Assembly (NCBI RefSeq): GCF_014251815.1
Contig: NZ_CP059202.1
Location: forward strand, 434,001 to 498,000
Direction of reading: 5' to 3'
From: Blattabacterium cuenoti
GTDB taxonomy: Bacteria; Bacteroidota; Bacteroidia; Flavobacteriales; Blattabacteriaceae
DNA: 64,000 nucleotides
In this document: positions 31,135 through 51,090 of the stretch, in pieces
Layout of the letters: each line of letters starts with the position of its first letter
How positions within the stretch are numbered: position 1 is the first letter of the stretch
The notes under the pieces: generated by a model
The model's database searches: none
Seen by the model: only the letters and a program-made list of their open reading frames with translations
Told to the model about the DNA's origin: nothing
Position numbers and translations under genes: made by a program

Positions 31135-31785
31135 TTACAAAATTTTTACATTTTTAATTTTATGTTTAAATATAAATAATGAAAACACACCAATAGATAT
31201 TACAACATCGGATAAATTAAAAATAGGTTTAAAAAACTGAAAATTATAACCACCAAAAAATGGAATCCAACCAGGAATATAAGTATCTATTATAGGAAAA
31301 TAAAACATATCTACAACACATCCTTCCATAAAAGAGGCATATCCCCCTTTTTTTTCAAAAAAATTAGAGTTTATTTTAGATACACCAATATAAGGAATCC
31401 ATTTTTGATATTCTTTGCTATAAACTGTTCCTGTATCAAATAATAATCCATACAAAGCGCTATCTAAAAAATTTCCCATAGCTCCTGATAAAATTAAACT
31501 AATAGGAATAGTCAAATATTTAGAATATCCTTTTTTTATATTCTTGTAAAGAAAAATAGAAATTAAAAAAATCAAAAAAAACCGTAAAATACTCAATAAT
31601 ATTTTTCCATAATATCCTACACCAAAATTTACCCCATAAGCCATTCCTGGATTTTCAACAAAAAAAATATGAAAAAAAGAAAATATGTCAATTCCACCTC
31701 CTAACTTAAAATGAGTTTTAATATAAATTTTTAAAACTTGATCTATTAATAAAATAGAGAAAATAATTAAAAAGAATTTTTTCAA
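31135..31785 (-). CDS. lspA: Lipoprotein signal peptidase (signal peptidase II)
   Basis: The 216-residue inner-membrane aspartyl protease cleaves the signal peptide of diacylglyceryl-modified prolipoproteins. Four hydrophobic segments are visible. The catalytic aspartates are in GAMGNFLDS (Asp108) and VVDMFYF (Asp159). The region between them is about 25 residues longer than in E. coli, a known Bacteroidota feature. A predicted lipoprotein substrate is encoded at 40215. The gene lies 9 bp after the DksA-like gene. Confidence 0.93.
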   Translation of the reverse strand: MKKFFLIIFSILLIDQVLKIYIKTHFKLGGGIDIFSFFHIFFVENPGMAYGVNFGVGYYGKILLSILRFFLIFLISIFLYKNIKKGYSKYLTIPISLILSGAMGNFLDSALYGLLFDTGTVYSKEYQKWIPYIGVSKINSNFFEKKGGYASFMEGCVVDMFYFPIIDTYIPGWIPFFGGYNFQFFKPIFNLSDVVISIGVFSLFIFKHKIKNVKIL

Positions 31786-38549: not shown

Positions 38550-40025
38550 TTATTTACTATAATTAAAATAATTAGGTGATTCTTTAGTAATATTTACACT
38601 GTGCGGATGATTCTCTTTTAATCCTGAATTGGTAATTCTTACAAATTTTCCCGTTTTCATAAGTTCAGTAATACTGGAAACTCCACAATACCCCATTCCT
38701 GAACGTAATCCTCCACAAATCTGATAAATCACATCTTTCATTTTTCCTTTATAAGGAACTATAGCTTCTATTCCTTCCGGAACTGATTTTTCATTGAACT
38801 GAAAATAACGATCGTTACTTCCTCTTTTCATAGCTATTAGGGATCCCATTCCCACATAAGTTTTAAATTTTCTTCCTTGAAAAATGACTTCCTCACCTGG
38901 AGCTTCGTCTGTGCCTGCAAATAAACTTCCAATCATAACAGAACTAGCTCCAGCAGCTATGGCTTTTACTACATCACCTGAATATCGAATCCCTCCATCA
39001 GAAATAACACTAACATTTCTTTTTTTAGCATATTCATACACATCATTAATGGCTGTTATTTGTGGCATTCCTACTCCAGCTATCACTCTCGTTGTACAAA
39101 TAGAGCCAGATCCAATTCCTACTTTTAAAACCGTAGAACCAGCTTCTATTAAATCTTTAGCCCCTTCCATAGTTACTACATTTCCTGTCAATAATGTTAT
39201 TTTGGGAAAAGAATTTCTAATTAATTTTATTGTGTCGAGTATCCTAGAAGAATGACCATGCGCTGAATCTATAGCTAAAATATCAGCCCCGACTCTAATT
39301 AAAGATTCTACTCTTTCTAAAGTTTTTTTATTATCTATTCCAATAGCTGCTCCTACACGTAATCGTCCTTTAGAATCTTTACAAGCATTAGGATATTCAA
39401 TCAAATTATCAATATCTCTAATTGTAATTAATCCTACTAATTTGTTACAATCATCCACAATAGGCAATTTTTCAATTCTTTCTTTTAATAAAATATTTTT
39501 AGCTTTTTCCAGAGTTATATTTTTTTTTTTAGATATAATTAAATTCTCTTTTGTCATTACATCTTCAACTAAAGAATCTAAATCTGTACGATATTTTATA
39601 TCTCTTCTAGTAATAATTCCAACTAATGAATAATCTTTTTCTATAACAGGTAACCCAGAAATTTTGAATTTTTCCATAAGATATTGAGCATATTTTAATG
39701 TAGAATCTCTAGAAAGAGTTATAGGATCATCTATCATTCCACTCTCACTCCTTTTGACTCTATAAACTTCTTCGGATTGATTTTTTATATTCATGTTTTT
39801 ATGAATAATCCCTATTCCTCCTTCTCTAGCTATAGATATAGCTAGAGAAGATTCAGTCACTGTATCCATAGCAGCACTTAATATGGGAATATTCATAGTA
39901 ATATCAGGTGTAAGATAAGTTTTAAGAGAAACTTCTGATGGAAGAACTGAAGAGAAAGAAGGAACGAGCAATACATCATCAAAAGTAAGAGCTTCTTTTT
40001 TTAAAATCTTTTTGTTTAAAGACAT
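38550..40025 (-). CDS. guaB: IMP dehydrogenase
   Basis: The 491-residue enzyme oxidises IMP to XMP, the committed step to GMP. The barrel carries DSAHGHS near residue 255 and the catalytic loop GIGSGSICTTR with the active Cys at about 309. ISDGGIRYSGD and GSLFAGTDEAPGE follow. Two CBS domains (about 95-205) sit inside the barrel and usually mediate nucleotide regulation. The gene is divergent from the small lipoprotein gene. Confidence 0.96.
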   Translation of the reverse strand: MSLNKKILKKEALTFDDVLLVPSFSSVLPSEVSLKTYLTPDITMNIPILSAAMDTVTESSLAISIAREGGIGIIHKNMNIKNQSEEVYRVKRSESGMIDDPITLSRDSTLKYAQYLMEKFKISGLPVIEKDYSLVGIITRRDIKYRTDLDSLVEDVMTKENLIISKKKNITLEKAKNILLKERIEKLPIVDDCNKLVGLITIRDIDNLIEYPNACKDSKGRLRVGAAIGIDNKKTLERVESLIRVGADILAIDSAHGHSSRILDTIKLIRNSFPKITLLTGNVVTMEGAKDLIEAGSTVLKVGIGSGSICTTRVIAGVGMPQITAINDVYEYAKKRNVSVISDGGIRYSGDVVKAIAAGASSVMIGSLFAGTDEAPGEEVIFQGRKFKTYVGMGSLIAMKRGSNDRYFQFNEKSVPEGIEAIVPYKGKMKDVIYQICGGLRSGMGYCGVSSITELMKTGKFVRITNSGLKENHPHSVNITKESPNYFNYSK

Positions 40026-40092: not shown

Positions 40093-40172
40093 AAAAGAAA
40101 ATTATAATTTAGTTATACTCTATTTTAAAAAAATACAAATAATGATATATTTTTTCATTCCAAATTTTTATA

Positions 40173-40180
40173 TAAATTTG
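40173..40180 (+). promoter_or_regulatory. Candidate -7 element for the lipoprotein gene
   Basis: TAAATTTG matches the Bacteroidota -7 consensus TAnnTTTG, 35 bp before the ATG at 40215. The -33 box would fall in a T-rich stretch near 40151 without an exact TTG. The rest of the 190-bp divergent region (40026-40214) shows nothing else recognisable. Confidence 0.35.
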
Positions 40181-40214
40181 CCCAGAATATGTAATAACTG
40201 AAACACTATCGATT

Positions 40215-40502
40215 ATGATGAAAAAATTAAGAATTACAGTCACTACGATCTTGTTGGCAATATTTTTATTTACCATTAGTTGCAACAACAAAAATAAAAA
40301 TGAGAGTAACTCTACTACAACAGAAGAGGAAAAAACAGCTAATAACAATGAAAATCAAACAGATTCCACTACCACAAACACACCTCCTACAACTAGCGAG
40401 GAATCCTCAAAAAACAATAATGAGGAAAACAATAATAACAACAATACATCATCTGAAAAAGAAAAAGTAACAACTGAAGAAAACGATAAAAATAATAAAT
40501 AG
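40215..40502 (+). CDS. Small low-complexity lipoprotein of unknown function
   Basis: I do not recognise a family. The 95-residue product begins with a textbook lipoprotein signal: two lysines and an arginine, a hydrophobic stretch ILLAIFLFTI and a lipobox TISC with the acceptor cysteine near residue 23. The mature 72 residues are almost wholly Asn, Thr, Ser, Glu and Lys, with (NNNNNN) and repeated TTTEEE/TTSEES patterns, and are predicted disordered. The gene is single, with its own candidate promoter and a strong hairpin after it. It carries more C and G in its codons than neighbours (ACC, TCC, GAG). ATG 40218 is an alternative start. The signal peptide is seen; surface location is inferred. 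Confidence 0.7.
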   Translation: MMKKLRITVTTILLAIFLFTISCNNKNKNESNSTTTEEEKTANNNENQTDSTTTNTPPTTSEESSKNNNEENNNNNNTSSEKEKVTTEENDKNNK

Positions 40503-40530
40503 AATTTTAAAAGTAAAGTAAAGCAGAAAA

Positions 40531-40569
40531 AAAGCGAAAAAAGAATACATGTACTCTTTTTTTCGCTTT
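40531..40569. terminator. Bidirectional terminator between the lipoprotein gene and rplS
   Basis: A long hairpin: left arm AAAGCG, six A, GA, TAC; loop AT; right arm GTA, TC, seven T, CGCTTT. There is one mismatch and one bulge. The A tract on the left and the T tract on the right would give a U run on either strand. It separates the convergent lipoprotein and rplS genes and touches the rplS stop codon. Confidence 0.75.
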
Positions 40570-40914
40570 TCAACTTTTTACTCTTGCTTTTTTTCCTTTT
40601 AGATTTCTAAAATAATAAATTTTAGATCTTCTAACTTTTCCTTTTTTGTGAACCTCTATTTTTCGTATATTAGGTTGATTGAAAATAAAAATGCGTTCAA
40701 TTCCTATACCTGAACTTATTTTACGAAGAGTAAATGTCTTTGTTAACCCTTTTCCTTGTTTTTTGATAACTACTCCTTTAAAAGATTGAATTCTTTTTTT
40801 TTCTCCTTCTTTAATTTCAAAAAAAACAGTAATAGTATCCCCTGAATGAAAAAGGGTAAAATGATTTTTAGACAAGAATTTCTCTTCTACATATTTTAGA
40901 ATATTTTGAAACAT
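40570..40914 (-). CDS. rplS: 50S ribosomal protein bL19
   Basis: The 114-residue protein lies at the 30S-50S interface. Family segments are FHSGDTITVFFEIKEGEKKR, QSFKGVVIKKQGKG, the central TFTLRKISSGIGIERIF and the C-terminal GKVRRSKIYYFRNLKGKKAR. It lies 19 bp after glmM on the same strand. Confidence 0.95.
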   Translation of the reverse strand: MFQNILKYVEEKFLSKNHFTLFHSGDTITVFFEIKEGEKKRIQSFKGVVIKKQGKGLTKTFTLRKISSGIGIERIFIFNQPNIRKIEVHKKGKVRRSKIYYFRNLKGKKARVKS

Positions 40915-42386: not shown

Positions 42387-43598
42387 TTATTCAAATTCTA
42401 TGACTTTTATGGGATATATTTTATTAATAAAAAATAAAGAAGGAAAAAATAGCGTTATAAAACAAATAAAAATAATAGATAAATTGATAATGATAACATG
42501 ATGGATGTTTATAGAAATGGGAACAAAATCAATGAAATATTCCGTTTTATTTAATGATATTAAATGATATTTTTTTTGTATTATTGACAAAATAATTCCG
42601 ATTCCGTTCCCTATTATTAATGGAGGCGTCAATACTTGTATAATATAATATAAAAATATTTTATGTATAACTTTATTTTTTGCTCCTAAAGTTTTCAAAA
42701 TTCCTATAGTTCGGATTCTTTCTAAAAGAAGTATTAAAATAAATACAACTGTATTAATAGTCACGGAAACAAAAATAATAAGAATAATAACAATAATATT
42801 TATGTCAAATATATTTATCCATTTTATAATATCACGGCTATTTTGAATAGTTTTTATTGAAAATTGATTAGGTATTTTATTATAAATTTTTTTATTGATA
42901 TTTTCATAGGATACAAAAACTTCAAATTTTTCTACTAAATCTTTTTTCCATCCGGAAATTTTTTGAATAGATTCTATATTTCCAATAATATATACATTAT
43001 CAAATTCTGGTATTCCTGTTTCATATAAATCAGAAATTCTAAATTTTTTAGAAATAATAACAGGATTTCCTTTTTTATCTTTTGATAAAAAACCAATTTT
43101 AACATTGGATCCAATATTTAATCCTAATGATAAGGATATTTTTTTGGATAAAATAATATTATGACTATACAAAAATTTTTTATGAAAAAAATTTTTTCTA
43201 ATTAAGAAATATTGAAAAAAAACAGGATTATAATCTTCGTATAATCCTTTAAATATATACCTATCTGTTTTTTGATTTGTAGAAATAATAACATCATTTT
43301 CGGCAATTCCATGAATTTGTCTAACTAAATTAGATTGAAAAAAATTTTTTTTCTTAATAGAAAAGGAAGAATAATTTCCTTTCAAATTCTCTTTCTGCAA
43401 AATAATTTGTCCTTTAACATTTAATAGTTTATTTTTTATAATTTCCTTAAATCCAAATCCAATAGAAAAAGTCAAAATAGCTACAATTAAGCTAAAAATT
43501 ATTGTTGTTTGCGTTATGATTACTATCGTACGGAGAGTTTTATTTCTTCTACAATCTTCCCAAATTGTTTTTTTGGAAAAAAACCATTCAAAATTCAA
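42387..43598 (-). CDS. FtsX/LolC-E-like ABC transporter permease
   Basis: The 403-residue protein has the MacB/LolC topology: one N-terminal membrane helix (about 22-48), a large periplasmic domain (50-260) and three C-terminal helices. The conserved FtsX region RIRTIGILKTLGAKNKVIHKI follows the second helix. Such proteins work with a separate ATPase, often to extract lipoproteins from the inner membrane. A LolE-type role would fit the lipoprotein at 40215 and LspA, but the ATPase is not in this window, so the role is inferred. The gene starts 10 bp after dnaB. Confidence 0.8.
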   Translation of the reverse strand: MNFEWFFSKKTIWEDCRRNKTLRTIVIITQTTIIFSLIVAILTFSIGFGFKEIIKNKLLNVKGQIILQKENLKGNYSSFSIKKKNFFQSNLVRQIHGIAENDVIISTNQKTDRYIFKGLYEDYNPVFFQYFLIRKNFFHKKFLYSHNIILSKKISLSLGLNIGSNVKIGFLSKDKKGNPVIISKKFRISDLYETGIPEFDNVYIIGNIESIQKISGWKKDLVEKFEVFVSYENINKKIYNKIPNQFSIKTIQNSRDIIKWINIFDINIIVIILIIFVSVTINTVVFILILLLERIRTIGILKTLGAKNKVIHKIFLYYIIQVLTPPLIIGNGIGIILSIIQKKYHLISLNKTEYFIDFVPISINIHHVIIINLSIIFICFITLFFPSLFFINKIYPIKVIEFE

Positions 43599-51016: not shown

Positions 51017-51090
51017 AGATAAATTTTATAGCTTTTGTGAGATAAATGTTATTAAAATGTCTATTTTATTTTTATTTAAATTGAGTGAAT

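Follow-up and report, generated by a model that had tools for sequence, protein, structure and literature searches.

The window, a 64-kb stretch of the 624-kb genome of Blattabacterium cuenoti, contains between guaB and rplS a short open reading frame that encodes a predicted lipoprotein precursor of 95 aa. guaB diverges from this frame and rplS converges on it, which bears out the initial annotation's description of an isolated single-gene unit. The features of the locus are as follows.

38550-40025, minus strand: guaB, diverging from the lipoprotein gene
40145..40184, plus strand: conserved upstream block, probable promoter region including an upstream AT-rich element (93% mean pairwise identity, 21 genomes)
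40173..40180, plus strand: predicted -7 promoter element TAAATTTG (TAnnTTTG, flavobacterial sigma-A), exact in 27 of 27 sequences
40215..40502, plus strand: lipoprotein precursor gene, 95 codons, starting ATG ATG
40215..40280, plus strand: predicted signal peptide, codons 1-22 (MMKKLRITVTTILLAIFLFTIS), with a lipobox ending before C23 and an AlphaFold helix at residues 3-23
40281..40301, plus strand: C23 and the basic, non-acidic segment CNNKNKN, nearly invariant
40302..40499, plus strand: polar acidic tail, predicted to be disordered, conserved in charge, with the recurrent islands TEEEKTANN and KEK...EEN(D/E)K
40527..40572, no strand assigned: hairpin with A-tract and T-tract, predicted terminator common to the lipoprotein gene and the convergent rplS
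40570-40914, minus strand: rplS, converging on the lipoprotein gene

The frame is a real gene under selection. Its pN/pS values (Nei-Gojobori-type proportions) are 0.04-0.19 for the signal peptide, where synonymous sites vary freely, 0.01-0.06 for CNNKNKN and 0.36-0.55 for the tail; the N-terminus is therefore under strong purifying selection. In the tail codons T occupies 43% of third but 1.8% of second positions; the scarcity of hydrophobic residues is thus due to selection on the protein, not to the make-up of the DNA. The pN/pS values and the second-position depletion of T rule out a chance frame or antisense coding. An RNA element at the locus was also rejected, because matches to Rfam are sub-threshold only and synonymous sites vary freely. 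No Pfam or NCBIfam family matches the protein above its curated cut-off (the best, PF21827, reaches 22.4 of 31 bits), and similarities to glue, mucin and mycoplasma lipoproteins in these collections also fall below cut-off and are probably compositional. The literature searched yielded no proteome or transcriptome of Blattabacterium that could be used for the gene.

The gene is intact in all 25 Blattabacterium genomes aligned by locus, always within a few hundred bases of rplS, and guaB adjoins it in all seven named loci fetched by guaB. The strain EUPHYsp, with a genome of 511 kb (G040/L060), keeps it beside guaB. When 396 genomes of the order were searched with a profile, it was recovered, with intact frames, from 49 of 49 Blattabacterium genomes, and the rplS neighbourhood holds wherever the position was checked. 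Positional orthologues between guaB and rplS, whose loss or disruption the initial annotation had named as counter-evidence, were found in intact form throughout the genus. G314, from a sister genus in the same family that has undergone less reduction (g20; 1.3 Mb, 37% GC in the stretch read), encodes a 90-residue lipoprotein (profile E 5.7e-8) that is convergent to rplS in a glmM...rplS context and has its own terminator. Its tail of 68 residues holds 10 basic residues (K) and 19 D/E, ends in KK, and is rich in Glu, Ala and Lys, not in Asn and Thr. Searched in reverse, the G314 protein led back to the Blattabacterium gene (best E 1.5e-6) and had no match in any other family. Among the 396 genomes of the order there was no profile match at E 1e-6 beyond Blattabacteriaceae; weak matches in other families were rejected as homologues, being other lipoproteins or compositional. 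The 200-300-kb family members sampled gave no match to the profile, and some of them still keep lspA. The gene has the properties by which we define the Blattabacteriaceae rplS-linked lipoprotein: a lipobox, a (predicted) disordered tail of 66-82 aa and an orientation convergent to rplS.

The candidate -7 element, and with it a promoter of the gene's own, had been proposed from the single sequence and is upheld by the comparison. The element TATAAATTTG is exact in 27 of 27 upstream regions, usually 34 nt ahead of the ATG, and places a predicted transcription start near 40185; it fits the flavobacterial sigma-A -7 box consensus TAnnTTTG (PMC9723704). No -33 TTG is visible upstream of the gene, and an upstream block, TTTTTTCATTCCAAATTTTTA, is conserved instead. 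The 40 nt at -70 to -30 are 93% identical (21 genomes), compared with 66% on the guaB side of the same intergenic region and 54-84% for those upstream regions of other protein genes that allowed clean scoring. Only upstream stretches that include a tRNA or a likely coding sequence (those of tuf, rny and gltX) exceed these values. For rny, the 40 nt ahead of the listed start (51045-51084 of the window, and relatives) are 97% identical in 14 genomes; this may reflect a misassigned start or a conserved leader. The genome holds no second full copy of the upstream block, which rules it out as a repeated regulatory motif. Downstream, the bidirectional terminator of the initial annotation is supported by folding: the stem folds at -15 kcal/mol in the window, and the hairpin shared with rplS is present in most relatives. 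Its sequence changes quickly, with a clear hairpin in about 24 of 27 genomes; in two of the others the arms lie far apart and in one the hairpin is weak. A generic terminator scan missed it because of the scan's GC and loop limits.

The N-terminus carries the expected features of a signal peptidase II substrate: the sequence MMKKLRITVTTILLAIFLFTIS-C combines Lys/Arg in the n-region, a hydrophobic core and a lipobox Cys (FTIS-C23), and C23 is invariant among the aligned orthologues. We infer that the precursor is a bacterial lipoprotein that is first lipidated and then cleaved by this enzyme. The lipobox signal followed by about 72 low-complexity polar residues was correctly described at the outset. 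The 72 residues after the signal peptide and C23 are 97% N, T, S, E, K, D, Q, P or G, with one hydrophobic residue; the most polar 72-aa stretch in any other large protein of the window reaches 65%. Across 72-residue stretches of the 39 larger window proteins, hydrophobic residues average 39% and never fall below 23%.

Comparison of signal peptide and tail shows that the former is nearly fixed, whereas the letters of the latter turn over freely with charge and polarity kept. Across orthologues the tail stays between 66 and 82 residues, with 6-10 basic residues (K/R, about 8 of them K) and 13-19 acidic ones (D/E, about 15), and its net charge is mostly -5 to -7, with two outliers at -9 and -13. 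In permutations of alignment columns that ignore phylogeny, the basic-residue count proved less variable than in shuffled columns (5 of 2000 permutations were as low) and net charge showed the same trend weakly (0.048). Tail length is more variable than in such shuffled columns (again ignoring phylogeny), and a precise molecular ruler is therefore unsupported. Small islands recur among the tails, TEEEK near the start and KEK...EEN(D/E)K near the end, and 25 of 27 orthologues end in Lys, the remaining two in KQ. AlphaFold, run with 20 orthologues, places the sole helix at residues 3-23 and gives a low-confidence tail (mean pLDDT 56.6, pTM 0.25), mostly below pLDDT 60, as expected for disorder. 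The Asn bias is largely mutational. The GC-richer G314 does not share the enrichment in Thr, Ser and Asn, which we therefore read mainly as the shape that AT-biased mutation gives to a tail under selection for polarity and acidity.

The genome holds lgt, and two genes for lipoprotein maturation and release lie in the window:

31135..31785, minus strand: lspA, signal peptidase II for lipoprotein maturation (G000:C1:465171-465767, PF01252)
42387..43598, minus strand: LolC/E-like lipoprotein-releasing permease (TIGR02212 at E 1.3e-29, below the curated cut-off; FtsX, PF02687, above cut-off)

lspA is retained in the genus members searched and broken in at most one. In that genome (G001:C1:459117-459700) it lies in two overlapping pieces, one with a stop codon, reflecting either a sequencing error or a broken signal peptidase II; the lipoprotein gene is intact there.

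Surface lipoproteins of Bacteroidota carry an acidic export signal just after the Cys, C-X-K-(D/E)2 in Capnocytophaga, with related acidic signals in Bacteroides and Flavobacterium, and Capnocytophaga SiaC, which has no export signal, lies on the periplasmic side of the outer membrane (PMC5080379). In the Blattabacterium protein the residues after the Cys are basic and read C-N-N-K-[NS]-K in nearly all 27 sequences. None of the 27 has K-(D/E)2, Q-A-(D/E)2 or S-(D/E)n directly behind the Cys, or any D or E at +2 to +5, which sets the protein apart from the LES-bearing surface lipoproteins of the same phylum (PMC5080379). With the sorting rule taken from other genera, a lipoprotein facing the periplasm is the simplest reading. 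A second Blattabacterium lipoprotein (G000:C1:203636-204232, locus L221; relatives L216-L235) belongs to a fast-evolving family with a low-complexity segment and a helical-looking C-terminal half; 7 of 26 Blattabacterium genomes yielded no match to it. This second protein shares with the rplS-linked one a signal peptide, C-N at +1/+2 and a low-complexity polar segment; it differs in its acidic, export-signal-like C-N-D-D/E (C-N-D-N in one genome) and its charged, helical-looking C-terminal part. The similarity between the two is weak and N-terminal or compositional, and the second protein is a candidate surface lipoprotein.

Basic residues after C23 would equally suit a lipoprotein held at the inner membrane with its tail reaching into the periplasm, for instance where Lol release is degenerate in some strains. 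Two Periplaneta symbionts are reported to carry lolD as a pseudogene (PMC6039017), and transport to the outer membrane may fail in them; the lipoprotein is kept in all genomes examined. We nevertheless regard retention at the inner membrane as unlikely, given that B. cuenoti keeps the LolC/E-like permease and that SiaC, also devoid of an export signal, sits at the outer membrane facing the periplasm (PMC5080379).

The initial annotation had left the choice between a host-facing surface component and a spacer-type envelope protein. The host-facing alternative, a surface-exposed lipoprotein whose glycosylated, Thr/Ser-rich disordered tail shields the symbiont inside the bacteriocyte, draws on the predicted disorder and the Ser/Thr/Asn richness of the tail, and on precedent in the Bacteroidota, where many lipoproteins reach the surface and exported proteins are O-glycosylated (PMC5080379, PMC12871550). 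It does not fare well against the absence of an acidic residue at +2 to +5 (0 of 27). The O-glycosylation motif of the phylum, D-S/T-A/L/V/I/M/T (PMC12871550), occurs 0-2 times per tail and in just 12 of 25 tails, and G314 lacks the Thr/Ser enrichment; a conserved glycosylation role of the tail, which had also been suggested, is unlikely. We consider a shielding surface protein rather improbable, while the spacer alternative fits the evolution of the tail.

The conservation of the N-terminus raises another issue. Identity over the first 18 residues, measured in one set of 16 genomes, is 92% for this signal peptide, 71% for that of OmpA and 51% for that of the second lipoprotein. A plain spacer role does not explain this extra conservation, which high expression or a specific N-terminal role could. 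The 29 N-terminal residues might themselves be the working part: they could stay uncleaved as a transmembrane peptide, or a product of the signal peptide could be released and act on a partner in the membrane, and the tail would do no more than add solubility. The signal peptide's high identity next to freely varying synonymous sites and the poorly conserved tail would agree with this; the complete lipobox with its invariant C23, the retention of lspA and the constraint still seen on the tail (its pN/pS and conserved charge) argue against it, and we think it improbable. A related proposal, in which the near-invariant signal peptide and CNNKNKN have a sequence-specific membrane function and the protein is a membrane-acting lipopeptide found only in Blattabacteriaceae and indispensable in reduced symbionts, is a long shot.

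Lpp, Braun's lipoprotein of Enterobacteria, is a tiny, monocistronic product with its own promoter and terminator, a C-terminal Lys and a structural envelope role, and forms a trimeric coiled coil. The protein described here is likewise tiny and monocistronic, with its own promoter and terminator, a C-terminal Lys and a presumed structural envelope role. Unlike Lpp, it is predicted to be disordered, without heptads and without a helix after residue 23 (AlphaFold), and the two show no sequence relationship. A Braun-type tether, with the C-terminal Lys joined to peptidoglycan by an L,D-transpeptidase, would suit a small single-gene lipoprotein with conserved promoter and terminator and Lys-terminated tails, but is very improbable because the genome has no match to the YkuD L,D-transpeptidase family (PF03734), Lys is in any case common in the tail and two orthologues have KQ at their end. 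Other parallels are Pal of E. coli, in which a disordered lipoprotein segment acts length-dependently, and outer-membrane lipoprotein linkers, which are also lipid-anchored disordered segments whose length matters as a spacer (PMC12826056). In Pal a folded OmpA domain follows the linker, whereas here the tail is the whole mature protein.

Non-covalent contact between outer membrane and peptidoglycan can be provided by an OmpA-family protein, which is present in the genome (L147, G000:C1:245382-246545); a linker with repeated DSVSDSEKEK precedes its OmpA domain. Among relatives the surrounding open frame ranges from about 236 to > 1200 codons. A query with the N-terminal part of the OmpA-family protein matched every genus member sampled except one (G016), which still keeps the lipoprotein gene.

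We tentatively favour, at somewhat less than even odds, a periplasm-facing, lipid-anchored and disordered polyelectrolyte tail that works in the envelope as a spacer or brush, resembling Lpp in its economy but lacking a covalent link. The precursor would be lipidated by Lgt and then cleaved by LspA before C23. The mature protein would consist of about 70 intrinsically disordered residues that form a polyelectrolyte tail on a lipid anchor, most likely in the outer membrane (or kept at the inner membrane) with the tail toward the periplasm. With a contour length of about 26 nm, the flexible, net-negative tail could act as the proposed spacer or brush. Membrane, orientation and spacer function are deduced from sequence features and comparison with other genera. 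The small protein is probably constitutively expressed, and the conserved promoter suggests that it is probably abundant.

Genes of unknown role are few in highly reduced symbionts. That this one is kept even in the most shrunken of the cockroach-symbiont genomes examined suggests a structural task in the envelope that is important yet unremarkable, not a host-facing one, and makes the lipoprotein a definite candidate for an envelope component that Blattabacterium requires. Kept in 49 of 49 genomes with a nearly free tail sequence, it offers a clean case of selection on charge and disorder, not on residues. Because the two Blattabacterium lipoproteins carry opposite N-terminal signals (CNNK versus CND[DE]), the pair also makes lipoprotein sorting testable in a reduced member of the Bacteroidota.
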